Shown here: positions 36,445-53,037 of the stretch, in pieces | How the letters are laid out: each line of letters begins with the position of its first letter | Numbering within the stretch: the first letter of the stretch is position 1 | Assembly (NCBI RefSeq): GCF_022808935.1 | Contig: NZ_JAKZFR010000002.1 | Coordinates: 434,001-498,000, forward strand | DNA from: Geothrix sp. SG200 | GTDB lineage: Bacteria; Acidobacteriota; Holophagae; Holophagales; Holophagaceae | DNA: 64,000 nucleotides | Reading direction: 5' to 3' | Translations under genes and position numbers: made by a program | Notes under the pieces: generated by a model | The model's database searches: none | What the model was told of the DNA's origin: nothing | The model's input: only the letters and a program-made list of their open reading frames with translations

Positions 36445-39400
36445 ATGACCCCCCCACGCCGGACCCTCGCTTTCCTTCTGTTCGCCTTGCTGGTGGGCCT
36501 CGTGCCCTGCAGCGCCGCGGACGCGCCCCGAACCTGCCAGGACTGCCACCCCAAGGTCCGCCAGGCCGCCGCTCCGGCGACAGCTCACAAGCCCCTGCTC
36601 GACGGAAAGTGCCAGTGGTGCCACAAGCCCCACGGCGCGGCGAACGTCAACCTCCTCCACGAGGGCGGCGGCCGGGCCCTCTGCGCCATCTGCCACAAGG
36701 GGTTCAAGCAGGCCGCCAGTGAGCGCCCGGCGCACCGCTTCGAGTCCAAGGGCGAGTGCGGGGCCTGCCACGGCGCCCACGACACGGGACGCAAGCGCCT
36801 GCTCCGGAAGGACGCGCAGGAGCTGTGCCTCTCCTGCCACGCGGACATCAAGGCCCGCACCACCTCGGCCCATCCCCATCCCGCGACGGACGACTGCCTG
36901 GCCTGCCACCAACCCCATCCCTCGGCCACGCGCAATCTGCTGAAAGCGGGCGTCCCGGGCCAGTGCGGCACCTGCCACGACCTGGCCGGTCTCTCGAAGA
37001 CCCACGGCGGCTTCCCGCTGAAGGCCGAAGCCTGCGCCACCTGCCACAACCCCCACGGTGGCGCGGCCAAGGGCCTCCTCCGCGACCGCGTGCACGCACC
37101 TTTCGCCCCGGGCTCCTGCGCCGACTGCCACGCGCCCGCCGCCGGCGGCGCCGTGAAGCTGGCGAAGGCCGTACCCGAACTTTGCCTGGACTGCCACGGC
37201 CCCCTGCCCGGCCCCGGCGTTCAGCACCAGCCGGCGAAGGACGGCGACTGCCTCACCTGCCACCGGCCCCATGCCGGGGACGCCAAGGGCCTCCTCACCG
37301 CCCCTCCCCAGGAGCTGTGCGCCAGCTGCCACACGGACCTCGCCAAGGGGAAGTCCATGCATCCGCCCTTCCGCGATGGCGCCTGCATGGACTGCCACCG
37401 CCCCCACGATTCGAAAGAGAAGGCCCTCCTCACCGCGCCCGCGAAGCAGCTCTGCCTCACCTGCCACGAGGATCTCGTCAAGGGCAAGAGCCAGCACGCG
37501 CCGGCCGCCCAGGGCGACTGCCTCGCCTGCCATGAGGCCCACGCCAGCGCCACGGCTCCCGTCCTGAAGCAGCCCGGAGAGACGCTCTGCGCCACCTGCC
37601 ACACGGGCGTGGCGAAGGGCGAGGTGGCCCATGCTCCGGCGAAGAAGGGCCAGTGCCTCGCCTGCCACACGCCCCACGCCTCCGATTCCGCCAAGCTCAT
37701 CAAGGGCGGCGAGCTGGCCGCCTGCGGCGCCTGCCACGAGAAGATCGTGAAGCGCAAGGTTCTCCATGCCCCGGTGAAGAACGGCCAGTGCAGCGCCTGC
37801 CACACGCCCCACGGCGGCGCGCTCGCGAAGCTCCTGAAGGACGACACGGAGAAGCTCTGCACCACCTGCCACGGCGACCTGATGAAGGGCGACGCCAAGC
37901 ACCAGCCCGCCACCGGCAAGCGCGGCTGCCTCGCCTGCCACGATCCCCACGGCGGCGACCAGGCCAAATTCCTCAAGCGCGACCAGCCCGAGGGCTGCTA
38001 CGCCTGCCACACCCGCAAGGACAGGTTCCAGGTCGTGCACTCCCCCGTGAACGATGGCCAGTGCAGCAGCTGCCACAGCCCCCACTCCGGCAGCGGGCCG
38101 GCCCTGCTGGCCTCCCCGAAGATCCAGGAGACCTGCGCCACCTGCCACGACCTCGCGGACGAGGCCCTGGGCCGCAAGCACCTCACCAGCTCGCTGGCGA
38201 AGGTGGACTGCCTGGGCTGCCACGAGCCCCACACCTCGACGAAGAAGGGCCTGATCCTCAAGGGCGCCCATCCCCCCTTCCTGGAGAGCTGCGGCAACTG
38301 CCACACGACGCCCGATCCCAGCGCCAAGCTCCCCGCCGGCACGCCCCGCCTGGACCAGCCCGTGCCCCAGCTCTGCCAGGGCTGCCACGCGGACCTGGAG
38401 CCCAAGGCCGGCGCCACCCAGCACCAGCCCTTCAAGGGCGGCGAGTGCCTGTCCTGCCACCGGCCCCACGCCTCGAAGAGCGAGTCCCTGCTGGAGAAGC
38501 CCGGCAGCCAGGTCTGCCTCACCTGCCACGAGAAGGCCGAGGCGCCCAAGGGCGGCTGGGCGCACAAACCCTACCTGGACGGCAGCTGCCGCGACTGCCA
38601 TGCGCCCCACCAGACCGAGACCCCCCATCTCCTGCGCCAGAAGACCCTCGACCTCTGCCTCACCTGCCACACGGCCATCGCAGCGGCGGTGAAGTCCAAG
38701 CACGCCCACCAGCCCGCTGCCTCCGGCGAGTGCCTCAGCTGCCACGGGGCCCACACGGGCAAGCTGGCCAAGGGCCTCCTCCAGCCCGTGGAGGAACTCT
38801 GCGTCAGCTGCCACGACGCCGGGGATCTGAGGAAGGCCCACAAGGGCTACCCCGTGTCCGCCAAGGACTGCGCCACCTGCCACGATCCCCACGGCTCCAA
38901 CAACGACGGCATGCTCAAAGCCACGGCCCACCCGCCGGTGGCGGAGGGCGGCTGTTCGACCTGCCATGCAGAACCCACCTCGGCCAAGCCCTTCGGGACC
39001 AGCGAGGCCCTGCCCGGTCTCTGCTTCAACTGCCACGACGGCGTCGCCGCGGCCGCCAAGAAGGCTTTCCCCCACCCCCCGGTGGCCAACGGCGAGTGCA
39101 CCGCCTGCCACACGCCCCACGCCTCCACCCGGCCTTCGCTCCTGGCGGGCAACCCCCGTGACCTCTGCCTCCAGTGCCACGACGGGCTGCGGGACGAGGC
39201 CAACAAGGCGGTCTCCCGTCACAAGCCCGTGATGGACGGCCAGTGCGCCACGTGCCACACGGCCCACGGCGGCGACGCCAAGGGCTTCCCCCGCGGCGAG
39301 GTCCAGACCCTCTGCCTGAGCTGCCACAAGGACAAGAAGGCCGGCCACCCCGTGGCCAACCATCCCACCTCAGGCCGCACCATCAAGGCCACGGGCAAGC

Positions 39401-39489
39401 CCCTCTCCTGCCTGTCCTGCCACCAGCCCCACTTCTCCAAGAGCCCCAAGCTCCTGGCCGTCAGCGGCTGCGACGCCTGCCACGGGTAG
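36445..39489 (+). CDS. 42-haem c-type cytochrome (doubled-CXXCH repeat protein)
   Basis: A 1,014-residue exported protein with a signal peptide (LAFLLFALLVGLVPCSAADA) and 42 CXXCH haem-binding motifs by hand count, about one per 24 residues from residue 30 to the last residues. They alternate between a CXXCHxPH form (as in CLACHTPHAS) and a CXXCHxD form (as in LCLSCHAD), the doubled-CXXCH module repeated about twenty times. Almost no sequence lies outside the modules. It is probably a periplasmic or surface electron wire. It is monocistronic, ends at a strong terminator, and faces the conduit operon. No lipobox or membrane anchor is seen. Confidence 0.93.
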   Translation: MTPPRRTLAFLLFALLVGLVPCSAADAPRTCQDCHPKVRQAAAPATAHKPLLDGKCQWCHKPHGAANVNLLHEGGGRALCAICHKGFKQAASERPAHRFESKGECGACHGAHDTGRKRLLRKDAQELCLSCHADIKARTTSAHPHPATDDCLACHQPHPSATRNLLKAGVPGQCGTCHDLAGLSKTHGGFPLKAEACATCHNPHGGAAKGLLRDRVHAPFAPGSCADCHAPAAGGAVKLAKAVPELCLDCHGPLPGPGVQHQPAKDGDCLTCHRPHAGDAKGLLTAPPQELCASCHTDLAKGKSMHPPFRDGACMDCHRPHDSKEKALLTAPAKQLCLTCHEDLVKGKSQHAPAAQGDCLACHEAHASATAPVLKQPGETLCATCHTGVAKGEVAHAPAKKGQCLACHTPHASDSAKLIKGGELAACGACHEKIVKRKVLHAPVKNGQCSACHTPHGGALAKLLKDDTEKLCTTCHGDLMKGDAKHQPATGKRGCLACHDPHGGDQAKFLKRDQPEGCYACHTRKDRFQVVHSPVNDGQCSSCHSPHSGSGPALLASPKIQETCATCHDLADEALGRKHLTSSLAKVDCLGCHEPHTSTKKGLILKGAHPPFLESCGNCHTTPDPSAKLPAGTPRLDQPVPQLCQGCHADLEPKAGATQHQPFKGGECLSCHRPHASKSESLLEKPGSQVCLTCHEKAEAPKGGWAHKPYLDGSCRDCHAPHQTETPHLLRQKTLDLCLTCHTAIAAAVKSKHAHQPAASGECLSCHGAHTGKLAKGLLQPVEELCVSCHDAGDLRKAHKGYPVSAKDCATCHDPHGSNNDGMLKATAHPPVAEGGCSTCHAEPTSAKPFGTSEALPGLCFNCHDGVAAAAKKAFPHPPVANGECTACHTPHASTRPSLLAGNPRDLCLQCHDGLRDEANKAVSRHKPVMDGQCATCHTAHGGDAKGFPRGEVQTLCLSCHKDKKAGHPVANHPTSGRTIKATGKPLSCLSCHQPHFSKSPKLLAVSGCDACHG

Positions 39490-39544
39490 GATCCCTTCCC
39501 ACATGGAAGCCCTCGTCATCGGGCACCTGGCAAGACCGTTTCTA

Positions 39545-39590
39545 CGCAAAGAAAGGCCCACGGTGTTGCTCCCGTGGGCCTTTCTTTGCG
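39545..39590. terminator. bidirectional terminator after the 42-haem cytochrome gene
   Basis: A 19-bp perfect stem (39545-39563 with 39572-39590) and an 8-base loop, with AAAGAAA on one arm and TTTCTTT on the other. It ends both the cytochrome gene and the convergent isomerase gene. Confidence 0.85.
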
Positions 39591-39620
39591 CTCCGTGCTT
39601 CTGTGAGGATCCCGAAATGG

Positions 39621-41189
39621 TCAGCGCTTGTCCAGTTCCTGCGCCACCAGCTCCGCGCCGTGGACCTTCAGGTAGTCCACCCGCACGGCGTCCCGGCACT
39701 CGGCAAGGGGCATCACGGGGCCCTGACGCCGCTCCAACACGTTGAAGATCATGTAGCCATCAGGGCCCAGCATGGGGCCCAGCGGCTGGTCCACCGGCCC
39801 CTCGAGCATGGGCTGAAGCAACGTGGGGGGCACCAGCTTCCGGAGCGAGGCCACCTCGATCCACTCCGGTTCGGGGCGGTTGACAACCTCGGCATCCCCG
39901 TAGCGCTGCACGGTTTCCCGCCAGCTCAAGCCCGATCGGACCCGAGCCAGGGCCTCATTCACGCGGTCCTCCGAATCCGTCACGAGAACCTGGAGCCGCA
40001 GGGCCCCCACCTGGCGGAAGCGGTCGGGATAGGCCTCGTGGTGGGCCTTCAGATCCGAATCCGCCACCTTCGCCGTGGCCAGATAGGCCTCGGAGAACAG
40101 GGCATAGGCCTGCTGACGCTGGCTGGCCCACAGGGCACCGCGGACGGCGGGTCGGCGGTCCAGCCCCTTCGCTTTGGCTGCCGCGGCAAGGCGGATCGAA
40201 TCCGCGAGGCCTTCCATGAAGGAGGCCTTGGTGGCCGCCCCCAGGGAATGGCTCTGGCCCACGGTCTTCAGGGCTTCCGCGAGGTACTGCTTCGTGTCCC
40301 GCAAGGAGATCATGGCCCCCGCCACTCGGCCCGCGACGGCCTTCTCGTCACCAGGCTTGGGTTCCGTGGTCCGGTCCGACCCCAGGATCTTCAGATCGGC
40401 CTTGAGGGGATAACGCTTCCTCAGGTCCGTCAGGGTGGATTCCCGCTTCTGGGCGGCCAGGGCCTCGGCCATCTGCCGCATCCAGGTGTCCTTCACCGCC
40501 GGGAAGTCCTCGGCCTTGGGAGTCCGCACGGCGAACACCTTGGCCACGTGCCAGCCATACTCGGTCTTCAGCGGGCCGACCAGCGCGTCCACCGGAGCCG
40601 CAAACACTGGATCCCCGAAGGCCTCCACCAGCTGGTTTCGGCGAATCCAGCCCAGGTCGCCACGGTTCTTGGCCGCGCTGGGGTCGATGGAACATTCCGC
40701 GGCCACGGCGTCGAAGGCTTCGCCAGCCTGGATGCGCTTCTTGGCGCCGGCAGCTTCCTCCTCAGTCCGGCAGAGGACGTGCGAAATCTTGCGCTCTTCG
40801 CCCTGGTTCAGGAAGGCCGCACGGACCTGGTCCTCGGTCATGGTGTGGCCCGGCATGGAATCCAACCACGCCTTCCCGAGGACCTCCCTCCGGCTGCGCT
40901 CCAATCTCTCCCGGGCATCGGCCGTTCTCAGTAATCCCATGGCCTGGGCGCGCGACCAGGCCTTCTCCCAGCGGGCGGCCAGGGCCAGGACCTCCTTGGA
41001 GGCCATCGTGGGATTGGCGGCCTGAACGGCCTGCAGCTTTTCAGCCTCGGTCAGATCCTGGCCCGGTGTGGACTTCGGGGCCTTCGTCCTCTGGGGTCCC
41101 GCCTGGGCTACGGACACGAGCAGTAGGGCCGAGAGGCAGGCCGCCGTCCGGTTCGCCGGGCTGGGACACGGGGTGGATTCGGCTATCAC
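39621..41189 (-). CDS. SurA/PpiC-like peptidyl-prolyl cis-trans isomerase
   Basis: A 522-residue periplasmic chaperone-like protein. A signal peptide (LSALLLVSVAQA) precedes a SurA-type helical N-domain, a parvulin domain at about residues 120-250 (KISHVLCRTEEEAAGAKKRI, AKNRGDLGWIRRNQLVEAFG, VGPLKTEYGWHVAKV) and a second, diverged parvulin-like region near the C-terminus. The GTG at 41189 has AAGGAG five bases upstream, which decides the start over an upstream ATG. As last gene of the porin-cytochrome operon it probably helps fold the barrel or cytochromes. Confidence 0.85.
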   Translation of the reverse strand: MIAESTPCPSPANRTAACLSALLLVSVAQAGPQRTKAPKSTPGQDLTEAEKLQAVQAANPTMASKEVLALAARWEKAWSRAQAMGLLRTADARERLERSRREVLGKAWLDSMPGHTMTEDQVRAAFLNQGEERKISHVLCRTEEEAAGAKKRIQAGEAFDAVAAECSIDPSAAKNRGDLGWIRRNQLVEAFGDPVFAAPVDALVGPLKTEYGWHVAKVFAVRTPKAEDFPAVKDTWMRQMAEALAAQKRESTLTDLRKRYPLKADLKILGSDRTTEPKPGDEKAVAGRVAGAMISLRDTKQYLAEALKTVGQSHSLGAATKASFMEGLADSIRLAAAAKAKGLDRRPAVRGALWASQRQQAYALFSEAYLATAKVADSDLKAHHEAYPDRFRQVGALRLQVLVTDSEDRVNEALARVRSGLSWRETVQRYGDAEVVNRPEPEWIEVASLRKLVPPTLLQPMLEGPVDQPLGPMLGPDGYMIFNVLERRQGPVMPLAECRDAVRVDYLKVHGAELVAQELDKR

Positions 41190-41232
41190 GGGAACTCCTT
41201 GGGATGGAGGGCTGGATCCTTCGAGCTCTGGA

Positions 41233-42456
41233 TCAGTAACGGGCCTGGACATGGTCGTAGCCATGACAGGTGAGGGTGCAGGTCCCGTGGCCCATTCCCA
41301 ACCGCTGGAAGTTGGCGCCCCCGACGGAGGAGGCCGTGACCACCGATCGGTCGAACTCTATGAGGGAAGCCTGCCTGGGTGATCCGTGGGAGGCATGGCA
41401 GGTGGCGCAGGCGGTGGGCTCCCCGTAGCCGGGCTGGAGAGCCCCGCTCCGCCCGGGACGGAGATCGCGCGAGGAGCGGATTCCCAACACCGCAGCAGCT
41501 TCAGAAAGACCCGGTACCCGCCTCGGCGCCGCGGGACCGCCGCCCGTGAACCCGTTCAGATGCTGGCTGTGGTAGGGGAAGGACTGGTTCGTCAGGATGG
41601 ACGGCTTGTCGTGGCATAGGAAGCAGAGGTCGTTGACACGGTCCCCCAGCCGTCCGAGATCCTTTTCGTGTCCGAAGGGGGCCTTGAGGATGGCGGGATT
41701 GGCGGACACGTGGGGGCCCCGGGAACCCGAGGCATCGGGATTGTCGTGGCAGGAGGTGCAGTCGAGCCGGCCCTGGAAGACCGAGGAACGCAGGCTCGGC
41801 AGATCGGGGCGGTCCGCCATCGTGGCCCCGATCCGGTGCGAGGAGACGGCCCCCTTGTCGAACTGAGAACCCAGGTCACGGGTCCCGGAGGGGAGCTGGG
41901 CCGCGTCCTGGCCGGCGTGGCAACCAAAGCAGATCTCGGCCACGGCCTGCGGCCGCCGGTCCAGCAGCTGGCCTCGGGCATCGAAGGCGGTGGTTCTCAG
42001 CTTGCCGCGCTCCTTCCCGTGGGCCTCGTGGCAGCCCAGGCAATCCTGGGCCAGGCGTACGGTCCTGGATTGGCCGTCCCGCGCCGTACGGAGGTAGGAC
42101 TCGGCCCGCCTTGAGCTGAACCGCCCCTTCACATGCCCCGAGCCCTGGCCGCTCCAGGGAGACAGTTTGGGTGCGGCCTCCAGGCCAGGAAGGGTGGCCG
42201 AGCCCTCGTGGCAGGACAGGCACAGGGGCTCCGTGGCTGCCCGGACCAGCTTCGACTTGCCCGGCAGCGCACCCTTGCGATGGCTCATGTGGCAGGAGGC
42301 GCAGAGGCCATGAGACGTGGAAGCCCCGCTGCGGGAGGGCGCCTGGCCCGCGGCAGGGGCGGGCCGCCCCTGGGCCGCGAGGAGGCCCATAGCCCACCCC
42401 ACGATCAATCCTGTCTGGATGGCACGCGACCACTGGATGGAGAACGCCTGCCTCAT
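41233..42456 (-). CDS. multihaem c-type cytochrome (7 CXXCH plus one CX3CH)
   Basis: A 407-residue exported cytochrome. A hydrophobic N-terminus (TGLIVGWAMGLLAAQG) precedes seven CXXCH motifs (CASCH, CLSCH, CLGCH, CFGCH, CTSCH, CFLCH, CATCH). A C-terminal GTCTLTCHGYDH is a CX3CH variant that may bind an eighth haem. The count recalls the octahaem OmaB-type periplasmic cytochromes of Geobacter porin-cytochrome conduits. Its ATG overlaps the stop of the beta-barrel gene upstream (ATGA), as expected for subunits of one complex. Confidence 0.88.
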   Translation of the reverse strand: MRQAFSIQWSRAIQTGLIVGWAMGLLAAQGRPAPAAGQAPSRSGASTSHGLCASCHMSHRKGALPGKSKLVRAATEPLCLSCHEGSATLPGLEAAPKLSPWSGQGSGHVKGRFSSRRAESYLRTARDGQSRTVRLAQDCLGCHEAHGKERGKLRTTAFDARGQLLDRRPQAVAEICFGCHAGQDAAQLPSGTRDLGSQFDKGAVSSHRIGATMADRPDLPSLRSSVFQGRLDCTSCHDNPDASGSRGPHVSANPAILKAPFGHEKDLGRLGDRVNDLCFLCHDKPSILTNQSFPYHSQHLNGFTGGGPAAPRRVPGLSEAAAVLGIRSSRDLRPGRSGALQPGYGEPTACATCHASHGSPRQASLIEFDRSVVTASSVGGANFQRLGMGHGTCTLTCHGYDHVQARY

Positions 42457-44234
42457 CGCCAGTTCCTCACGCAGATGGTATCGAACAACCGCAGCAACTC
42501 TAGGTTGAGGTTGTCATTGCGGAACCCTCCTTCCGTGCGGGCCGTCTGGTAGCGGACGCGGAGGGATATCTGGCGGAAGATCAGGTCGGTCCACGCCGAC
42601 AGGGTGGTCATCGCCGGACTCCCCGAGGCCTGGGACCGCAGGGCGAGGGCCCCAATGGGGATTTTCCACAGCCGGCTGGTCACGCCCACGGAGTAGTAGC
42701 GGCTCTGGGTTCCGGTGCCCTCAAACCCCGGCGCGACGGCGTTCCCGGTCGGCGTCAGGGCAGGATCGCGGTGGCTGGTGTTGGCGCCCAGAGAGGCCGT
42801 CAGGGTGGTAGCACCCAGGCGGTAGGACCCCCTCGCGAGGACATCCGTGCTGCGCAGGTCCAGCCCCGGCTGGGCCAACCCCCGGTCGTGCCTCACGTCG
42901 CCCATCAGAAACAGCGTCAGATTGCCGCGGGTCTGGACCTGACCCGTCACCCGGGCCCAGTCCAGCACGCCATTCGTGCTGCTGTCGCTCATGCGCCAGA
43001 GGTCGGCCGTGAAGTCGAAGGTGCCGGACTGGCGCATCCGGCGCTGCAGCATCTCCTGAGCCAGCTCAGAAGGGATATAGTCCGGGGGATACTCGTCGCG
43101 CACCCGGCGGTCGTAGCTCCAATCACTGAGGAAGAACAGGCTGTTCCGGATCAGCTCGGGCACGCTGCCGCCCCGGGCGAAACCCAGGTTCAGTGAGGTC
43201 AGGTTCTTCGACGTGGCCAGGAGCGGGCTGTCCTGGCGGAGGGAGGAGAGCCCCACATCCCCATGGACCCGCCACTCAGGCGTAAGGCGGTAGGAGGCGC
43301 CTGTCAGGAAGGAGCCGATGCGGTTGCTCCACCCCTCGGAGGGCGTGTCGGCCTTGCTGTAGCTGCCCGTGGTGTGGGTGTGCCACTGCTCCCGCTCGTA
43401 AACCAGCGTTTCCGACGCGAAGGCGCTGTTGGTGCGCGTCGTGTCCGAGATGTTGGCGCCGGCGGACACCTCGGTCAGGGAATGCCATGCGCCTCTGATG
43501 GGGCCGTAGAAGGAGGCATTGACGTTCGACCACTGGTTGAGGCCTGAATCCTGGAACTGGGATCGTGTGCGGAGCTTCCAATCATTCGCCAGGAACGTGT
43601 CCGTATCCAGGGTCGCGGTGATGAACCTCCAGGCCTTCAGATCGAGAGGCACGTATTCCTGGCGGATGGCCTGGAAATCCACCTGCGTCGTCCTCGAACG
43701 GTGGTGGTTCTCGAGCTTCCACTCCGACCAACCCTCGCGGTAGGCATTGGGAGCATCACCCCCCTCCAGGTGGGTGTCCCCCTTCCGGTAGGAGAGGGCC
43801 GTGCTCCCCAGGATGCGGCTGCTGCCTTGCAGCCCGGCGCCCCAGGCCTCACCCTTCATGGAGCCCGAACCGAAGAGATCCGGCGACTGAGTGCGCTGGT
43901 AGTCGACGAAGAGCTTGATGGGCCGGTAGGGGAACAGGCTGATCCGGGCGCCGTAGCTCTGGATCCCGGTGATGGTATCCGACTCACTGCCGTAGGCCAG
44001 GCGGTTGTATTCCACGGCGCCGTTCAGGGCCAGGGCGCCTAGGCGGTAGGTGAAGACCGGCAGGCCCGCTTCCACCTCGTAGGTGGCCTGGGTGGCGGAG
44101 GACGAACCCAGCTGGCTGACCTGCCACTGGTCGTACCGCAGCCGGAACCGCTGGTTCAGCACCAGCGGGCAGTCCTCGGACCACGCGGCCACCGCCGCGC
44201 TCGCGAGCATCAAGGTGAGAAGGCGAAACTTCAC
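42453..44234 (-). CDS. outer-membrane beta-barrel, probable porin of a porin-cytochrome conduit
   Basis: A 593-residue exported protein with a signal peptide (LLTLMLASAAVAAWS) and many alternating amphipathic strands rich in Tyr, Trp, Arg and Thr, such as YRLGALALNGAVEYNRLAYG and WRFITATLDTDTFL. The length suits a barrel of twenty or more strands like MtrB or Geobacter OmbB. Cysteines occur near both ends (EDCPLVLNQRF and DTICVRNWR), but there is no MtrB-type CXXC. Start is GTG with GAGGGG upstream. Assignment rests on composition and on its coupling to the 7+1-haem gene. Confidence 0.75.
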   Translation of the reverse strand: MKFRLLTLMLASAAVAAWSEDCPLVLNQRFRLRYDQWQVSQLGSSSATQATYEVEAGLPVFTYRLGALALNGAVEYNRLAYGSESDTITGIQSYGARISLFPYRPIKLFVDYQRTQSPDLFGSGSMKGEAWGAGLQGSSRILGSTALSYRKGDTHLEGGDAPNAYREGWSEWKLENHHRSRTTQVDFQAIRQEYVPLDLKAWRFITATLDTDTFLANDWKLRTRSQFQDSGLNQWSNVNASFYGPIRGAWHSLTEVSAGANISDTTRTNSAFASETLVYEREQWHTHTTGSYSKADTPSEGWSNRIGSFLTGASYRLTPEWRVHGDVGLSSLRQDSPLLATSKNLTSLNLGFARGGSVPELIRNSLFFLSDWSYDRRVRDEYPPDYIPSELAQEMLQRRMRQSGTFDFTADLWRMSDSSTNGVLDWARVTGQVQTRGNLTLFLMGDVRHDRGLAQPGLDLRSTDVLARGSYRLGATTLTASLGANTSHRDPALTPTGNAVAPGFEGTGTQSRYYSVGVTSRLWKIPIGALALRSQASGSPAMTTLSAWTDLIFRQISLRVRYQTARTEGGFRNDNLNLELLRLFDTICVRNWR

Positions 44235-44260
44235 AAAGGCCCCTCAGGAGAGCGCGTCCA

Positions 44261-44296
44261 GAAAAAGGCGGGGGGCGGGTGGAACCCACCCCCCGC
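44261..44296 (-). terminator. hairpin with U-tract between tetrahaem and barrel genes
   Basis: Read on the minus strand, a GC-rich stem (GCGGGGGG pairing with CCCCCCGC, 44269-44296) is followed by TTTTT at 44262-44266. It may cause partial termination and raise the level of the tetrahaem cytochrome over the barrel. Confidence 0.65.
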
Positions 44297-44326
44297 GGGC
44301 CGAGCATGGTGAATCCTGGTGTGAGC

Positions 44327-44992
44327 CTACTTGACGTGGCAGGTCGTGCAGAGCTGCGAGTTGGTCATGGTCATGCGCAGGAAGGGCGCGATCGTGTTGT
44401 CATGCACGCTGTGGCAGCTGGCGCACTCGACCTTGCCGCTGAACAGGGGCAGGCCGCCCACGTTGGCCGTGGTGCCAGTCCCCGTCACGGCATTCAGCTT
44501 GCTCGGCACCATCGCCGCCGAGGTGTCATAGGTGATGGTCACGGGGTGGTCGTTGCTCAGGTCGACGCCGAGGGCCGGAGCATTCAGGAGATGGCCAGTA
44601 GTCGCGTCCACGTTGGTGCTGCCGGTCAGGGTGCCGAGGCCGCCGGTGGGCATGTTGATGAGCTGGCCCACGGAGGAGGTGCCGTCGTGGCAGGTGAAGC
44701 AGGCCAGGCTGGCGCCCGTGGGCTGGCCAGCCACCTGGACCAGGGTGGCGCTGGTGTAGGGGATGAAGGTGGGGGCGGTGGTCGTGTAAGCGTTCCGGTT
44801 CCACAGGGGCTGGTTGGCCAGGACGTTGGTCCCGGTCGCGGCATTGTGCGGAGCGTGGCAGAACACGCAGACCTGGGTGGTCGTGTACTTGGCGCCGGCA
44901 CCGGAGGCACTCAGGTCATGCTTGGTGCCCTTGATGCCCGCGGACAGGCTCAGCGAGCCGGCGGCCAGGAGGACGACGAGAAGGGACTTCAT
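44327..44992 (-). CDS. tetrahaem c-type cytochrome
   Basis: A 221-residue exported cytochrome with a signal peptide (SLLVVLLAAGSLSLSAG) and four CXXCH motifs: CVFCHAPHN, CFTCHDG, CASCHSVHD and CTTCHVK at the C-terminus. The first and third pairs follow the doubled-CXXCH spacing. A Thr/Gly-rich stretch separates the first two. It could be a soluble shuttle feeding the conduit. GAGGTGAACC precedes the ATG. Confidence 0.88.
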   Translation of the reverse strand: MKSLLVVLLAAGSLSLSAGIKGTKHDLSASGAGAKYTTTQVCVFCHAPHNAATGTNVLANQPLWNRNAYTTTAPTFIPYTSATLVQVAGQPTGASLACFTCHDGTSSVGQLINMPTGGLGTLTGSTNVDATTGHLLNAPALGVDLSNDHPVTITYDTSAAMVPSKLNAVTGTGTTANVGGLPLFSGKVECASCHSVHDNTIAPFLRMTMTNSQLCTTCHVK

Positions 44993-45005
44993 GGTTCACC
45001 TCGTA

Positions 45006-45053
45006 GGTGGGTTGGGGGGGGGTGGGGGAAAGAGCGGGCGGCGAGAGCCGCCC
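45006..45053. promoter_or_regulatory. hairpin and G-run tract between NHL and tetrahaem genes
   Basis: GGGCGGC (45036-45042), GAGA loop, GCCGCCC (45047-45053) directly after the NHL gene stop, and a plus-strand tract with GGG, nine G and five G runs at 45009-45028. In the minus-strand transcript this is a stem followed by a C-rich leader before the cytochrome gene. Confidence 0.45.
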
Positions 45054-46114
45054 TATTGCGGGGTTGGAGAGGGGGATGCCTTCTCCTCGCGCAAATACTG
45101 GAACTTCTGGATGCGGCGGTTGATCTGGTCGGCCACGTAGATGCCGTCCGAGGCGTCGATGGCGATGCCGTTCGGCACCTGGAACTGGCCCTTGCGGGCC
45201 CCGCCCGCGCCGACGGGCAGGAGGATCTGGCCCGACTGGTCGAAGATCTGGAAGTTGCCGAAGGCGCCGTCCACCACGTAGAGGTGGCCCTCCGAATCCA
45301 CGGCGATGCCCTTGGGGCGGGCGAACTGACCGGCCATGTCGCCCACCTTGCCGAAGGTGCGGATGAACCGGCCCTTGTAGTCGAAGAGCTGGACGCGGAA
45401 GTTGCCCGAGTCCACCACCGCGAAGCCCAGGCCCGGAACCATGCAGGCGTAGGTCGGGTAGTTGAACTGGCCGTCGTCGGTGCCGCGGCCGCCTAGGGTC
45501 TTGATGAGTCTGAGGTTGCGGTTATAGAGGCGCACGGCATGCTCATCGCCGTTCACCACCACCAGGAGGTCCCGGGATTCGTCCACGGCCAGGCCCACGG
45601 GGCGCTGGATGCCATCCGGCCTGCCCACGGAGCTGAGCTGGTGCCCCTCCTTGTCGAAGACCACCACCTGGCTCGCGTTGGCGCTAGCGGCGTAGACGAA
45701 CTTGGAGTCCGCCGCGAGGCCCGTGGGCGAGGGCAGCACGGCACCAGCGATATCCGAGAACTTCCAGATCTTCTTGTTGGCGGGGTCCATGGCGATGACG
45801 CCCAGGTTGTAGTCGCCGACGAACATCACGCCCTTGTCATCCACGGCCACGCTGAGCGGCCGCTGGAGCCAGATCACGTCCTCGGACTTGCCGGCCAGGC
45901 GGTCGAGGAAGCTGCGCTTCTTCTTGGCGCCCACATCGAAGGCGTTGCGGTACTCGGCCACCCACTTGATGCGGGCGGGAGCGGGCGGCGGGGGCCAGGC
46001 CAGCACCTCGTCCTGCGCCACGGGAGGTGCGGCGGGTTTCTGCGCGGACAGAGGCGCCATCGCGCTCGCGACACACGCGAAGGCAACGGACAGCAGGGTG
46101 GAATGCTTGAACAT
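45053..46114 (-). CDS. NHL-repeat beta-propeller protein, exported
   Basis: A 353-residue protein with a signal peptide (LLSVAFACVASAMAPLSA) and about five to six NHL repeats, for example IQRPVGLAVDESRDLLVV, FARPKGIAVDSEGHLYVVD and FQVPNGIAIDASDGIYVAD, forming a beta-propeller. Such proteins accompany multihaem cytochromes in metal-reducing bacteria and may scaffold the complex. First gene of the leftward porin-cytochrome operon. ATG 46114 is preferred to 46156 because it starts directly before the signal peptide. Confidence 0.85.
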   Translation of the reverse strand: MFKHSTLLSVAFACVASAMAPLSAQKPAAPPVAQDEVLAWPPPPAPARIKWVAEYRNAFDVGAKKKRSFLDRLAGKSEDVIWLQRPLSVAVDDKGVMFVGDYNLGVIAMDPANKKIWKFSDIAGAVLPSPTGLAADSKFVYAASANASQVVVFDKEGHQLSSVGRPDGIQRPVGLAVDESRDLLVVVNGDEHAVRLYNRNLRLIKTLGGRGTDDGQFNYPTYACMVPGLGFAVVDSGNFRVQLFDYKGRFIRTFGKVGDMAGQFARPKGIAVDSEGHLYVVDGAFGNFQIFDQSGQILLPVGAGGARKGQFQVPNGIAIDASDGIYVADQINRRIQKFQYLREEKASPSPTPQ

Positions 46115-46421
46115 GGCTTGTTTGCCTCGTGGATGGCTTGCATCGGACAACGTCACAGGAACCTGTCAGCCGACCCTCGAACCATAGGGCCCATAAGCGA
46201 ACTACGGGTCATCTATTTTTGTGATTTTGATCATCTGGTTTTTTTTTCTTAGGGGCCTTTAAGAAACGATTGCTTTGTTGCAGCTCGCAACTGTTGCGTG
46301 TTACACGGCATAGATCATCTGCTTATCCTTAAACCTCATTCCGCCTTATGCTCCTGGTGTCCCGGACCTTCTTCCGAGGACTCCCCCCCCTCTGCACAGC
46401 CAGTTCCCTGGAGGTCATCCC
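46115..46421. promoter_or_regulatory. divergent control region of the two cytochrome operons
   Basis: A 307-base AT-rich stretch, in sharp contrast to the flanking genes, between two divergent NHL genes. It contains a T9 run at 46239-46247, the CRP-like site listed next, a GTTGC-N5-GCAAC dyad near 46277-46291, and GATCATCTG twice (near 46229 and 46313). It probably controls both operons together. Confidence 0.6.
46220..46235. promoter_or_regulatory. CRP/FNR-family-like site
   Basis: TGTGATTTTGATCATC matches the left half of the CRP consensus TGTGA-N6-TCACA and part of the right half (TCA). It also holds TTGAT as in FNR sites. The call is by eye and unproven. Confidence 0.35.
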
Positions 46422-47783
46422 ATGACCGGCCGGTCCATCCTTCGCCGACGCTGGGCCCTGTCCACGGCCCTCGCCTTCCTGTCCGGCCTCGGCCTGGCGG
46501 CCCAGGCCACGCTTCCCGTCGCCACCCCATTGCGCTCCTATGACAAAGGCTTCCGCGCGCCGGTACGCCTGGCCACGGATTCCGCCGGACGCCTCTTCGT
46601 GGCCGATCCCCGGCTGGGAGTGATCACGGTCCGCGACGAGGCGGGCCGGTTCCTCGGGGCCAAGTGGGGCTTCGCCCAGCCTCTCGGCATCGCCGTGGAT
46701 CCCTCGGGCCGCATCTTCGTCTGCGAGGCGGGCAAGGGGCGAGTTTCCATCTTCACGCCCGGCTGGGTGCCCGCGGGATACCTCGGCCAGGGCGACGGCG
46801 AGTTCCAGATGCCCAACCACCTCCAGATCACGCCGAACGGCCTGGTCTACGTGGTGGACAGCCAGGCCAACCAGGTGAAGGTCTACGGCCCTGGCAACCA
46901 GCTGGTACGCCAGATTGGGACGACCGGGGCCCTGGCTGGCCAGTTCAACTTCCCCACGGGCGTCGCAGTCGCGCCCTCGGGCGAGATCTTCGTCTCCGAC
47001 CAGGGCAACGAGCGCATCCAGGTCTTCGACGCCAACGGCACCTTCCTCCGGAAGTTCGGCGGCCTCCTCGGCATGATCGGAACCAACACCACCTTCGGCC
47101 GCGTGCAGGGGCTGCTCGCGGATGCCCAAGGGCGCATCTACCTGGCGGACTCCTTCCGCGGCGTGGTGGTGGTGGTCACTGCCACAGGCACCGTCCTGGG
47201 GAACCTGGGCAGCTTCGGATCAGATCCTGGCCAGCTTCAGGGCCCCGCCAGCTTGGCCATCGACCGGAACAACCGCCTCCTCGTGGCTGCGCCGGGCAAC
47301 ACCCGGGTGGAGGTCTATGGACTGGATGCCTACACCGATCCCCACATCCTCTCCGCAAGCCTCTCCGTGAAGCCCACCCAGCTGGTGCGGGAGAATCCCG
47401 AGGGCCGAGCCCACGCTCGTCAGTCCACCACCCGAGCCGTCCGCAACTGGCGGGAGCAGGATGACGGGATTCCCGGCGCCACCATGCGCCCCCCCCTGGT
47501 CTCTGTCCTCATCCGGATCCCCGGCGTGGATCCATCCACCATCCAGGGCGGCACCCTCACTGCCAACGGGGTGGCCGCCACCCGCGTCCCCGGAGCCTTC
47601 ATCGGGGACTTCGACCACGACGGATTCCTGGAATACCGGGCCTGGTTCGACCAGAACCGTATGCTGGCCACCCTGCCCGACGGGGACGCCTTCCTGGCGC
47701 TGTCGGGCAGGCTGAACGACGGGCGTACGTTCGAAAGCCTCGCTTTCGTGACCGTAATCAATCCGACCGGGAGCGCCCAATGA
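46422..47783 (+). CDS. NHL-repeat beta-propeller protein, exported
   Basis: A 453-residue protein with signal peptide (ALAFLSGLGLAAQA). Residues about 40-305 hold NHL repeats (FAQPLGIAVDPSGRIFVCEA, FNFPTGVAVAPSGEIFVSDQ, LQGPASLAIDRNNRLLVA). The C-terminal 130 residues form a different domain with an FIGDFDHDGFLEYRAWFDQN segment, resembling a Ca-binding dockerin-like or EF-type loop. It heads the rightward cytochrome operon; its stop overlaps the 13-haem gene (ATGA). GGAGGT precedes the ATG. Confidence 0.85.
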   Translation: MTGRSILRRRWALSTALAFLSGLGLAAQATLPVATPLRSYDKGFRAPVRLATDSAGRLFVADPRLGVITVRDEAGRFLGAKWGFAQPLGIAVDPSGRIFVCEAGKGRVSIFTPGWVPAGYLGQGDGEFQMPNHLQITPNGLVYVVDSQANQVKVYGPGNQLVRQIGTTGALAGQFNFPTGVAVAPSGEIFVSDQGNERIQVFDANGTFLRKFGGLLGMIGTNTTFGRVQGLLADAQGRIYLADSFRGVVVVVTATGTVLGNLGSFGSDPGQLQGPASLAIDRNNRLLVAAPGNTRVEVYGLDAYTDPHILSASLSVKPTQLVRENPEGRAHARQSTTRAVRNWREQDDGIPGATMRPPLVSVLIRIPGVDPSTIQGGTLTANGVAATRVPGAFIGDFDHDGFLEYRAWFDQNRMLATLPDGDAFLALSGRLNDGRTFESLAFVTVINPTGSAQ

Positions 47784-50374
47784 TCCGCCGCCTCGTCCTC
47801 CCCGTTCTCGCCCTTGGGCTCCTGCTCAGGGGTGAAGCTAGGCTCCTCGCCAGCGACCCGCCACACAACTCTGCAAACAACATCCAGTGCGTGAGTTGCC
47901 ACAAACTGCACAAGGCACCCGGCGGTACGCTCACCACCGTGAGCGGCAACGTGAACCTCTGCCTCAGCTGCCATAGCGACGGCGCCAAGGTTTCCAAGGC
48001 TCTTTACAACTCGGACCAATCCGTGCCCGCAAGCGCCAGCCTGGTGGGCTCCGCCGCCGGCGGCACGTCCCACCGCTGGGATTCCAGCGCCGCGGGGCGC
48101 CTCATCAAGACCACCAACAACTCCACCGCGACCATCACGCCTTCCGGCGACTACACCGGCGCCTACCCCGCCACCATCATGATCAAGGTCGATACCACCT
48201 TGGGCGCCACCACGGGCAAGGCGACGGTCACCTGTACGCAGACCATCGATGGCACCACCTGGACAGCCATCGGCACCTCCTTCACCACCAGCACTACTCC
48301 CCAGCTCCTGACGGGGACCGGCGTGTCCCTGGCCTTCTCCAGCACCGGCACCTTCGCGGCCAACGATGTCTTCTACCTCTACGTCCGACCCGACCTAGTG
48401 AACCCCACCTCGATCATGGCCACCCGCCTCGAGGGCGGGAAGATGATGTGCTCCACCTGCCACGACCAGCACCTGCAAGCGAACGCGCCCTTCGACCCGA
48501 CCGCCCCGGGCATCACCAGCGGCACCGGCAGCGCCGGCCGCCACTTCCAGCGGGTGAGGAACGACGACGGCTCCATGTGCGGCGACTGCCACGCCCCCCG
48601 CAACGTGGGCAAGGGTGGCACCTCCCATCCGGTGAACCTGCCCGTGGCAGGTGCGGCGAATACCAAGGCCCCCACCACCGTGCCCCTAACATCCAGCGGC
48701 AACGTCCACTGCCTCAGCTGCCACGACTTCCATGGGGCGCCCACTACCACCACACCCGCGGGCATGCTGCTGCGCGTGAGCAATTCCACGGCCCTCTGCA
48801 CCGATTGCCACACCCTGGCGGACACCACCACCGCCAATACCCACACCAACTCCACCAGCGGCATCCTCTGGCCCGGCGACGGGTACGGCGGGAGCACCTA
48901 CTATCCCTCCCCTGGCATTACGGACACCACGAAGCGTGGTGCATGCATGAACTGCCACACTCCCCACGGTTGGCCCGACGCCAACAACCCCGGTGGCAAG
49001 TACGCGAACGCCCTGGGAGCGGAGCAGGACAACCTCTGCGAGACCTGCCATGACGGCACCCCCGCCAAGGACGTCCGCACCCAGATCATCAAGACCTACC
49101 GCCACCCTGTGGACCGCAACAGCGGCCGCACCGTGGGTTGCGCCGACTGCCACAACCCCCACATGGCCGTCGCCGGCGTTCACGCCTATGGTGTGACCAC
49201 TCCGGCGATGACTGTGGATCGCAACCGCATCCGCACCGCGCCCGTGGCGGGGACGGCACCGACCGTGTACAGCGGAGCCATGAAAGGCGTGGATGGGGTC
49301 AAATTCAACTACTCAACAATCGCCAGCAACTGGGCGGTCCCCGTCGCCACCACCTTTTCTAAGCTTAATAGCGGAAATCCCAAAGGCTTCCTTGGCGCAG
49401 GAGGCACTGGAGAGACTGACCGTGGCGCCGAGTTCGAATACCAGGTCTGCTTCAAGTGCCACACCAGCTATGACTCGATGAATTCCACCACGAGCAGCAC
49501 CATCCTAAGGACGGTGGCCTGGGGCGGAGTCACCGCGCACTACAACGCCGGCACCGCCAAGTTCACCAACGGGAGCACCGCCGTCGTCGGCACCAGCACC
49601 ACCTGGACCACGTTCATGGCCGGCATGTACATCCAGAAGAACATCACCTCCCCGGCTTACCGGATCGCCTCCGCCACGGCCACCTCCATCACCCTGGCCA
49701 CCCCCTACGCGGGCACCACCGATGCTTCCGCGGCTGGTTACACCATCACCAAACAAGAGACCGATCTGGCTCAGGAGTTCAATCCGAAGAACGCCTCCTT
49801 CCACCCAGTGGTTGCGGGGGCGGCCGCCGCGGGAAGCGGCTCCAGCGCCTTGACCGCCGCCCAGATGAAGGCTCCCTGGGCTACCAACCTCGGCACCCAG
49901 ACCATGCTCTGCTCGGACTGCCACAACACGGAAGCCGCCTCACCGGCGGCCCAAGGGCCCCATGGATCGGCAAACAGGTTCATGCTCAGGGGCACCAACG
50001 TTCTTTGGCCGGCGACGACGGCGTTCAATGGCTCAACCCTCTACAACACCACCTTCTGTTCCAATTGCCACACCTATGCCTCAACCAATGTCGTCCACGC
50101 TGAACACACTGGCCGTTCCGCTTCGGGTAAAACCTTCACCTGCACCAGCTGCCACCTGTTGGTGCCGCATGGTGGCAAGCTGGGCCGCCTGATCGCCACG
50201 AATACTGCTGGCCTACCCAAACGGTACGCTGTGGATGGGGACTCGACGAACGTCTTGATTCGCGCTTTCGTTAAGGCGTCAACCCCAGGAGGGTACTCGA
50301 AATCCAATTGCGGATCCGCACAGAGCGGCTGTACCACCCATTCCCTGACTTCGAGCGCCTCGAACTCCTGGTAG
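47780..50374 (+). CDS. 13-haem c-type cytochrome with beta-domain inserts
   Basis: An 864-residue exported cytochrome with 13 CXXCH motifs by hand count, from CVSCHKLHK near residue 40 to CTSCHLLVPHG near 790. The signal peptide is PVLALGLLLRGEARLLA with no lipobox. Two Thr/Ser/Gly-rich beta-type segments without haems interrupt it, at about residues 110-205 and 575-660. A C-terminal SNCGSAQSGCTTHS holds two more Cys and a His. Size and haem number recall the surface OmcB-type cytochromes (12 haems) of Geobacter conduits. Surface location is inferred. Confidence 0.9.
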   Translation: MIRRLVLPVLALGLLLRGEARLLASDPPHNSANNIQCVSCHKLHKAPGGTLTTVSGNVNLCLSCHSDGAKVSKALYNSDQSVPASASLVGSAAGGTSHRWDSSAAGRLIKTTNNSTATITPSGDYTGAYPATIMIKVDTTLGATTGKATVTCTQTIDGTTWTAIGTSFTTSTTPQLLTGTGVSLAFSSTGTFAANDVFYLYVRPDLVNPTSIMATRLEGGKMMCSTCHDQHLQANAPFDPTAPGITSGTGSAGRHFQRVRNDDGSMCGDCHAPRNVGKGGTSHPVNLPVAGAANTKAPTTVPLTSSGNVHCLSCHDFHGAPTTTTPAGMLLRVSNSTALCTDCHTLADTTTANTHTNSTSGILWPGDGYGGSTYYPSPGITDTTKRGACMNCHTPHGWPDANNPGGKYANALGAEQDNLCETCHDGTPAKDVRTQIIKTYRHPVDRNSGRTVGCADCHNPHMAVAGVHAYGVTTPAMTVDRNRIRTAPVAGTAPTVYSGAMKGVDGVKFNYSTIASNWAVPVATTFSKLNSGNPKGFLGAGGTGETDRGAEFEYQVCFKCHTSYDSMNSTTSSTILRTVAWGGVTAHYNAGTAKFTNGSTAVVGTSTTWTTFMAGMYIQKNITSPAYRIASATATSITLATPYAGTTDASAAGYTITKQETDLAQEFNPKNASFHPVVAGAAAAGSGSSALTAAQMKAPWATNLGTQTMLCSDCHNTEAASPAAQGPHGSANRFMLRGTNVLWPATTAFNGSTLYNTTFCSNCHTYASTNVVHAEHTGRSASGKTFTCTSCHLLVPHGGKLGRLIATNTAGLPKRYAVDGDSTNVLIRAFVKASTPGGYSKSNCGSAQSGCTTHSLTSSASNSW

Positions 50375-50387
50375 TACGAGGCCATCC

Positions 50388-51671
50388 TTGAGCGTGACCT
50401 GGCTTCAGCGGCTGAAGCACTTCCTCATCTCCCCGGCGACCATCGTCGGGGATTTGGCCGTTATCACGCTCCTGGGAAGCCTCGGAGCCGCCTTGCCCCA
50501 GGCCGGCGTGGCTGCCGCCGCCGAGGTGGGGTGGCTGCGCCAGCACGGGCCCTTCCTCTCTTTCCTGGCGGATCACCTGGCCCTGGACCATGTATTCACC
50601 AGCCCGCCCTTCCTGGTCGCGCTGGGCTTCGCCACCGTGTCCCTGTCCATCGTGGTGGTCGAGCAGATCCGCCGCCTGGCCGCCCAGTGGAAACTCACCC
50701 CCACGGAGGGTGCCTTCCGCGGCGCCCCCTTCCGCGCGGAATTCACGCGGCCCGCCTCGGGGGCTGCCACGACGCTGCGGACCCGCGGTCGCCTGGGCTT
50801 GGCGGGCTCGCCCCTGTTCCACCTGGGCCTGCTCTGCGTAATCCTCGCCGGCGCCCTCCAGGCTCTCTTCGGCGTGAGCGCGGTGGTGGACCTCTACGAA
50901 GGGGAGGTGCTCCCGCCCGCCGTCGAGGCCTGGGGGGCCCAGTGGCCCGGGCCCCTGGGCTCGCCCTTCCGCCTGGAGACGCCCCTGCGCCTGGTGTCCG
51001 TGGAGAGCACACGCTACGGCGGTGGCGATCTGCGGACCCTCCGCCTGCGGTTGGCGGAGGTGACGTCGAACGGAGACCAGATGCGCGAGATGGGCATCAA
51101 CCAGGACCTGCCCGTGCCGCGGGGTCGCCTCTACGCGGACAACCAGCACGGCCCTGCGGCCCTGGTGGAATGGAGTCTCCCCGCCAAGCCGCCCCAGCGG
51201 ACCGCCATCCTGCTGGAGAAGAAGGAGGCCGCCGCCTTCGGAGCCTACTCTCAGGGGCCGGGTCACCTGCGCGCCCGCATCCGGGTGCCCATGCCCGGGG
51301 ATGGCAGCCGCCCCGGCCTGGCGGAGGTGCGCGTCCTCGACGGCCCCGCCACCCTGGCGGAGGGCCCCCTGCGGCCCGGCGAGAGCCTGCCCCTGCCCGG
51401 GGGTGGCGCGCTGAAGCTGCACGGCCTCCCCTACTGGGCCCGGCTCCACGGCAATCACGACCCTGCCATCGGGCTGGCCTACCTGGGCTTCGCCCTGGCC
51501 CTGACGGGAGCCGCCCTCACCTACGGGATCACGCGAGTGGACGAGCTGGTGGCCGTCACGCCTGAAGGCGAGTTCGAGAGGGTGGTAGTGGCCCTGCGGC
51601 CCCACCGCTTCGCCCCCCTGTTCCGGGAGCGGTTCGAGCGCCTGGTACGGGACCATGGAGGTGAGGTGTGA
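50388..51671 (+). CDS. ResB-like cytochrome c biogenesis protein
   Basis: A 427-residue membrane protein of the ResB/Ccs1 type: N-terminal helices (TIVGDLAVITLLGSLGAALP, PPFLVALGFATVSLSIVVVE), a third helix near residue 145 (LFHLGLLCVILAGALQALFG), a large periplasmic domain and a last helix near 370 (IGLAYLGFALALTGAALTYG). In System II it pairs with CcsA to move haem outward and attach it to CXXCH. A TTG at 50388 has GAGG six bases upstream; GTG at 50394 is an alternative. Similarity is moderate. Confidence 0.8.
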   Translation: MSVTWLQRLKHFLISPATIVGDLAVITLLGSLGAALPQAGVAAAAEVGWLRQHGPFLSFLADHLALDHVFTSPPFLVALGFATVSLSIVVVEQIRRLAAQWKLTPTEGAFRGAPFRAEFTRPASGAATTLRTRGRLGLAGSPLFHLGLLCVILAGALQALFGVSAVVDLYEGEVLPPAVEAWGAQWPGPLGSPFRLETPLRLVSVESTRYGGGDLRTLRLRLAEVTSNGDQMREMGINQDLPVPRGRLYADNQHGPAALVEWSLPAKPPQRTAILLEKKEAAAFGAYSQGPGHLRARIRVPMPGDGSRPGLAEVRVLDGPATLAEGPLRPGESLPLPGGGALKLHGLPYWARLHGNHDPAIGLAYLGFALALTGAALTYGITRVDELVAVTPEGEFERVVVALRPHRFAPLFRERFERLVRDHGGEV

Positions 51672-52213
51672 TCATGCGAATGTTCCTTGCCCTGGCAGTC
51701 CTGGCCCTTCCCCTGGGCCTCGGATGCTCGCGGGTGTCCTCCAGCGAGGCCAGGATGCTGGTGGCCCGCTACAACCAGGTGGTGAGCGAGGCCTACCGGA
51801 AGAACGATGTCCGTCTCATCGACGAGGTGGTGGGACCGGACGCGCCGGATGGCAAGCGCCTCCTCGGCCTCATCGGCGTGCGCATGGACATGGGCCTGAC
51901 CCTGGATGCCCGCCTGGAAGACCTGGAGGTGACGAAGGTCGAGCAGGCCGCCGACAGTCTCCAGGTCCACACCCGGGAGCAGTGGCGCTACCGGGATGTG
52001 CAGACCGCCACGGGCCGGCAGGTGGGCGAAGCCTCCGTGGACCACTACGAGATGCTCTACCGGTTCAGCTACCACAAGGGCACCTGGCTGGTGGAGGAGA
52101 CCAAGTTCACGGCACCACCCCAGGTGGGACGCAAGGAAGTCCCCTGGAACATCGACGCCAAGGATGCCCACGGCATGATCACCGCGCCCGCCACCCAGGG
52201 AGCAAAGCCATGA
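51668..52213 (+). CDS. lipoprotein of unknown function
   Basis: About 181 residues with a lipobox (ALPLGLGCSR) and a soluble alpha/beta domain, including SYHKGTWLVEETKF near the end. This pattern resembles NTF2/SnoaL-like small domains, but I do not recognise a family. It sits between ResB-like and CcsA genes with 4-base overlaps on both sides, so a role in haem delivery or apocytochrome handling is plausible. Starts GTG 51668, ATG 51674 and ATG 51680 are all possible. Confidence 0.7.
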   Translation: MIMRMFLALAVLALPLGLGCSRVSSSEARMLVARYNQVVSEAYRKNDVRLIDEVVGPDAPDGKRLLGLIGVRMDMGLTLDARLEDLEVTKVEQAADSLQVHTREQWRYRDVQTATGRQVGEASVDHYEMLYRFSYHKGTWLVEETKFTAPPQVGRKEVPWNIDAKDAHGMITAPATQGAKP

Positions 52214-53037
52214 GCCCCTTCTTCCAGGAGACTCTCCTCCACTGGACGGCCGTGGGCGTCTACGCCCTGGCCGCCATCCTCTTCGCCCACGCCCTGCTCT
52301 GGGACCACCCCGCGCGGGTCCGCTGGGCTCGCGGGCTCGCGGCCCTGGGCCTCCTGCCCCACGGGGCGGCCCTCGTCATCCGCTGGATCGAAACGGGCCA
52401 CGGCCCCTACATGCTGAAGTACGAAGTGCTGTCCTCCAACGCCTGGATCGCCATCCTCATGCTGCTCATCGTGCTGTGGCGGCGACCCCGCTGGGCGGGG
52501 CTAGCCCTAGTGGTCCTGCCCGCCGCGATCCTGATGATGGGCCTGGGCCTGCTGGCGAGCCCGGAAGCCAAGGAGCTGCCCCCCACGCTGCGGTCCATCT
52601 GGCTCGTCTTCCACATCTTCTTCACCAAGCTGGCGGTGGGGGCGTTCCTCCTCGCCTTCGCGGCCGCGGTGCTCGTGCTCCGCAAGCTCAAGGGCGCCAC
52701 CAGCCCCTTCCTCGCCCGGTTCCCGTCGGCGGAGGTCCTGGATGCCTCGATGATCCGCTTCGTGGGCTTCGGCTTCGTGTTCTGGTCCACCACCATCATC
52801 GCCGGCGCCATCTGGGCTCATCAGTCCTGGGGCCGCTACTGGGGCTGGGATCCCATCGAGACCTGGTCGCTCGTGACCTGGCTCTGCTTCGGCACCTTGC
52901 TGCACCTGCGGCTGTTCTACCGCCTGGGCCCGCGGGCCACGGCCTGGTTCACCATCGGCTGTTTCGGGGTTTCCATCCTCACGGCCTTCATCTTCCCCTT
53001 CCTCCTGCCCTCGCTTCACGCCGCCTACTTCCAGTGA
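52210..53037 (+). CDS. ccsA: cytochrome c biogenesis protein CcsA (System II)
   Basis: A 275-residue membrane protein with eight predicted helices. The tryptophan-rich haem-handling WWD motif is WGRYWGWDPIETWSLVTWL. Conserved His residues lie in VFHIFFTK and in IWAHQSWG. With ResB it forms the haem export and ligation complex, matching the demand of the 13-, 7+1-, 4- and 42-haem proteins next door. The ATG overlaps the lipoprotein stop. Confidence 0.93.
   Translation: MSPFFQETLLHWTAVGVYALAAILFAHALLWDHPARVRWARGLAALGLLPHGAALVIRWIETGHGPYMLKYEVLSSNAWIAILMLLIVLWRRPRWAGLALVVLPAAILMMGLGLLASPEAKELPPTLRSIWLVFHIFFTKLAVGAFLLAFAAAVLVLRKLKGATSPFLARFPSAEVLDASMIRFVGFGFVFWSTTIIAGAIWAHQSWGRYWGWDPIETWSLVTWLCFGTLLHLRLFYRLGPRATAWFTIGCFGVSILTAFIFPFLLPSLHAAYFQ

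Follow-up and report, generated by a model that had tools for sequence, protein, structure and literature searches.

The window, by which we mean the whole 64 kb stretch of DNA analysed here, from a Geothrix bacterium of soil and sediment, holds only four reading frames with two or more CxxCH motifs, and these are the 42-, 8-, 4- and 13-haem cytochrome genes of a single compact island. Its presumed left operon, read on the minus strand, encodes an exported NHL beta-propeller (NHLa, 45053-46156; Pfam NHL, E 1.6e-23), an OmcE-family tetrahaem cytochrome that is a putative nanowire subunit (44327-44992; four CxxCH), a putative outer-membrane beta-barrel with a signal peptide (42453-44234), an octahaem cytochrome (41233-42456; seven CxxCH and one C-terminal CxxxCH, in the form CxxxCHGxxH) and an exported parvulin-type peptidyl-prolyl isomerase (PPIase; 39621-41264; Pfam Rotamase_2, E 3.5e-20), with a terminator-like hairpin on the same strand between the OmcE and barrel genes (44268-44296). 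The 42-haem cytochrome gene (36445-39489, plus strand) converges on this operon; its product has a signal peptide and 42 CxxCH motifs in about 21 paired repeats, with Pfam Paired_CXXCH_1 matching in 22 stretches, and the gene adjoins the island in most Geothrix copies, at 62-92% identity.

A putative divergent promoter region, so named by its position (46157-46421), separates the two operons; a sigma-70-like promoter sought there gave no match. The right operon, on the plus strand, begins with a second exported NHL beta-propeller (NHLb, 46422-47783; Pfam NHL, E 1.5e-27) and continues with a 13-haem c-type cytochrome (47780-50374; 13 CxxCH, signal peptide), a ResB-like System II haem-attachment protein (50388-51671; Pfam ResB, E 5.6e-15), an NTF2-like lipoprotein (51668-52213; weak TcaA_5th match), the haem-export/ligation protein CcsA (52210-53037; Cytochrom_C_asm, E 1.1e-32), a BchE-related, B12-binding radical SAM protein (53109-54569) and, last, an exported 249-aa protein (54652-55401). 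Beyond the island, at 56767-58767 on the minus strand, an L,D-transpeptidase (YkuD) domain and a complete Mur-ligase (Mpl-like) are encoded together as a single protein.

The original prediction was right about the number of haem motifs, the strands and the order of the genes, as a motif count of the window confirms; Pfam backs its NHL, parvulin, ResB and CcsA assignments, and the lipoprotein that it placed in the right operon indeed carries a lipobox-like LGLGC. Its CcsA start, given as 51655, moves to about 52210, and the right operon, which it had ended at CcsA, runs on to 55401 through the radical SAM and 249-aa protein genes. The order of the island is conserved in congeners, so this is not a chance arrangement. 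Most Geothrix islands also have the 249-aa gene after the radical SAM gene; its product matched nothing in Pfam or NCBIfam. Homologues of it lie near OmcE in 13 of the best 79 OmcE loci, including L016, L019 and L022.

An OmcE-family cytochrome and its neighbourhoods

The original prediction had counted the four haems of the 221-aa tetrahaem protein correctly and had missed its identity: across residues 7-221 it matches the OmcE filament structure PDB 7tfs over the full length (E 3.6e-36), at 42% identity to OmcE. A bis-histidine tetrahaem protein requires eight histidine ligands, and eight histidines (H25, 46, 49, 102, 149, 194, 197 and 219) are invariant among 12 relatives, namely the four haem-motif histidines and four further ones, each of the eight being kept in 49-52 of the 52 sequences of a broader OmcE set. 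In OmcE and OmcS filaments, haem ligation includes a histidine from the neighbouring subunit (PMC12954529). Judged by its sequence, the protein is thus an OmcE-family cytochrome and a putative nanowire subunit, and this homology makes the island an OmcE-type nanowire locus. By analogy with OmcE, the protein would be secreted and polymerise into a conducting filament; what cytochrome filaments do in the physiology of the cell is itself a matter of dispute (PMC11077965; PMC13194489).

Full-length OmcE occurs in 10 of 47 Geothrix genomes, and the barrel and radical SAM genes in nine each, in every case among those ten and in no other, counts that are not independent owing to shared ancestry. This all-or-none pattern supports the inheritance of OmcE, barrel and radical SAM genes as one unit. 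Two congeners carry the barrel and octahaem genes as part of a second set elsewhere instead of between OmcE and the PPIase, indicating that this pair can be uncoupled from OmcE. Among Geothrix copies OmcE is 49-65% identical, and only about 50% identical between congeners whose 42-haem proteins share 87-92%, so that, from these identities, the filament subunit appears to diversify fast while its 42-haem neighbour is constrained. OmcE and the barrel are also far more variable among these copies than CcsA or the radical SAM protein.

Directly 3' of the OmcE stop codon lies a 13-bp GC stem followed by a T run. A strong GC hairpin follows this stop in all nine Geothrix copies examined, in some of them with bases changed yet still paired, and with a T run that is weak in three; a shuffle test on the window's hairpin sequence alone gave a modest z of -1.84. 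The conserved hairpin is in keeping with a surplus of the filament subunit, and it likely sets OmcE above the barrel, octahaem and PPIase.

Relatives of OmcE are widespread, in at least 538 genome stretches. Around the best 79 of these at least 538, an NHL gene and additional multihaem cytochromes recur as neighbours, often joined by a protein of 585-725 aa that usually has an aromatic residue at its C-terminus or close to it; across many phyla, most OmcE loci include an NHL protein. Ten Desulfuromonadia (Geobacter-like) genomes show the order ResB, CcsA, 8-10-haem cytochromes, NHL, OmcE, barrel, and in Geothrix, too, an NHL protein, a barrel, other multihaem cytochromes and ResB/CcsA stand beside OmcE. 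The ten Geobacter-like loci make System II beside OmcE the ordinary state. The joining of System II to the island, offered earlier as a novelty, is therefore already found at omcE loci, together with NHL, large cytochromes and a barrel; likewise, the omb-oma-omc, ext and mtr conduits proposed for comparison give way to the omcE nanowire locus as the nearest known relative, the tetrahaem protein being OmcE.

The Geobacter omcE gene (GSU0618; filament structure PDB 7TFS) encodes an OmcE with the same haem ligands in similar company. Compared with that locus, Geothrix has two divergent operons, an added parvulin, the 13- and 42-haem cytochromes and a lipoprotein, as well as the hairpin after OmcE, the BchE-like radical SAM gene and a separate octahaem protein. 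Likenesses in gene content extend to the OetABI conduit with OmcX/OmcS (PMC10553843), which brings together a barrel, large cytochromes and a putative filament cytochrome, and to a SEEP-SRB operon (PMC12246660), which has these plus a PPIase and a beta-propeller; the cytochrome families of both differ from those of Geothrix. In the osc (OmcS-companion) operon described for Geobacter (Shen 2025, cited in PMC13194489), likened here by description, a filament cytochrome likewise has folding and secretion proteins of its own alongside, although that cytochrome is OmcS, unrelated in sequence to OmcE.

A barrel and a candidate adaptor

An OmcE-NHL-barrel-NHL-11-haem cassette, found in Gammaproteobacteria, Nitrospirota, Bacteroidota and others, shares OmcE, NHL proteins and an octahaem-like domain with the Geothrix island, with the difference that in the cassette the octahaem-like part shares a polypeptide with a second OmcE domain, whereas in Geothrix it is a protein of its own. 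An OmcE profile built from tetrahaem proteins alone, with the 11-haem proteins excluded, covers residues 1-213 in all 61 of the 10-11-haem proteins from OmcE loci, and the Geothrix octahaem profile matches 55 of the 61, mostly at residues 230-500; among 23 control cytochromes taken from those loci the top score was 5.1 bits, and the window's own 42-haem protein reached 5.8. The octahaem protein is thus homologous, by profile comparison, to the C-terminal part of these OmcE fusions, 40 of which also have the C-terminal CxxxCHGxxH. This natural fusion suggests that the octahaem protein and OmcE touch, with the octahaem protein at the barrel. From these sequence relationships we propose the octahaem protein as a filament-to-barrel adaptor: the barrel would hold it, the pair forming an outer-membrane conduit, and it would hand electrons to the filament at its base. 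An AF2 model of it reached a pLDDT of only 52.

The barrel belongs to no catalogued family. Searches of Pfam and NCBIfam gave no match, and among the solved conduit barrels in the PDB, as in both family collections, no homologue of an Omb-Oma-Omc, Ext or Mtr barrel was found. Its N-terminal part resembles the distant barrels of the OmcE cassette in a profile-profile comparison (probability 94.6, E 6.9e-8, over 139 columns only), and the two are probably related; against three other Acidobacteriota candidates the profile found no support (probability 5.5). Copies in Geothrix are 34-64% identical, and an AF2 model built from two sequences had a pLDDT of 26; we infer the barrel fold.

The remaining exported proteins may assist in several ways. 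The PPIase gene adjoins OmcE in other Acidobacteriota and in Nitrospirota as well, and the parvulin is likely a folding helper for cytochromes or the filament; it and the NHL propellers would have a part in folding, in secretion or in docking. The 13-haem gene precedes ResB in all Geothrix islands and also in genomes G095, G207 and G342. We considered its product as an OmcE-domain fusion and rejected this, having found only short repeat-like matches. Along with the 42-haem cytochrome, it could serve as a further electron carrier or a surface terminal.

A BchE-related gene beside the haem-attachment genes

ResB and CcsA, the pair that defines System II, are both present, and the position of the lipoprotein gene linked to them is conserved; CcsA is 76-93% identical among Geothrix copies. 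Second copies of ResB and CcsA lie elsewhere in the genome, on contig C1. The dedicated ResB/lipoprotein/CcsA set would attach haem to the island's cytochrome load, and the original reading of an extracellular electron-transfer island with its own System II genes is well supported.

The radical SAM gene continues this group. BchE, the Mg-protoporphyrin monomethyl ester cyclase of chlorophyll synthesis, is its best NCBIfam model at 366.1 bits, 226 bits ahead of the next family (140). We rejected the protein as a true BchE: the score lies below the equivalog cut-off of 481.35, the genome has no BchH Mg-chelatase subunit, and the protein falls in a separate tree group, a clade sister to BchE and set apart from it, whose unity is moderately supported (89/93). 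The domain layout is that of BchE without the C-terminal extension, and identity to photosynthetic BchE on plasmids is 34-36%, compared with 46% to a Frackibacter relative and 43% to Aromatoleum. A search by sequence alone of 396 Acidobacteriota gave 17 matches. Fifteen, at 611-870 bits, are from non-phototrophs, and all of them adjoin CcsA/ResB/lipoprotein or cytochrome/NHL genes; the other two, at about 474 bits, show no such linkage and are probably the true BchE of Chloracidobacterium-like phototrophs. Among 399 Burkholderiales the clade occurs only in Aromatoleum, and eleven further matches (455-472 bits) have no linkage within 1.5 kb flanks. In 16 of 19 clade loci CcsA lies on the same strand at most 424 bp away, and across three phyla the clade, which includes a Halanaerobial and a betaproteobacterium, keeps company with CcsA/ResB and multihaem cytochromes. 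Geothrix copies are 82-97% identical, except for a 36% version in G008. At the same island position, G008 (L095) and G010 (L103) carry a radical SAM gene of a different subclade, one that other Acidobacteriota families have as well, a pattern that suggests replacement in place.

What the enzyme does can be argued in two directions. A natural guess is that it may act on haem or a porphyrin: encoded in what appears to be the same operon, it could alter haem, a propionate being one conceivable site, ahead of export by CcsA, and a subset of the cytochromes at nanowire loci would then carry an altered haem c. We hold this proposal, extended to the whole non-phototroph clade, to be tentative and on balance rather unlikely. 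The enzyme may instead be a bystander with an unrelated lipid, RNA or peptide substrate, kept in place by operon structure only, an explanation that we regard as a serious contender falling somewhat short of an even chance. B12 radical SAM enzymes act on many substrates, the score is under the BchE equivalog cut-off, and the gene is absent from Geobacter-type omcE loci and from most other OmcE loci, all of which would suit a bystander. Less easily squared with it are the recurrence of the haem-attachment or cytochrome neighbours across all the non-phototroph Acidobacteriota matches and beyond that phylum, the confinement of the gene in Geothrix to genomes with the island, and the wide lead of BchE over any other family. 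Our literature search returned no paper joining BchE, radical SAM and multihaem cytochromes.

Filament locus or classical conduit

The island as a whole could also be read as a classical porin-cytochrome conduit of OmbB-OmaB-OmcB, Ext or Mtr type that makes no filaments, in which the tetrahaem protein would carry electrons as a monomer, with either the 13- or the 42-haem protein as the terminal at the surface. The barrel and octahaem genes are indeed adjacent and co-directional, and the octahaem/11-haem profile partially matches MtrA (6r2q_A, E 1.7e-8). The tetrahaem protein, however, is a full-length OmcE homologue, the barrel resembles no catalogued conduit barrel, and inspection of the 13- and 42-haem proteins revealed no lipobox on either, so that we consider a conduit of this kind improbable. 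We think it probable that the island represents an OmcE-type cytochrome-nanowire locus in a layout specific to Geothrix, furnished with conduit, folding and maturation genes.

Loci of this general kind are known already; new here are the hairpin, the BchE-like enzyme and the case for an adaptor. They bear on two questions: what links cytochrome nanowires with the outer membrane, and by what route the nanowires receive their cofactors. The OmcE-octahaem fusion found across phyla provides a concrete candidate for the adaptor, which in Geothrix is a separate gene of the compact island. With a BchE-like enzyme encoded alongside, cytochromes associated with the filament might contain modified haem.
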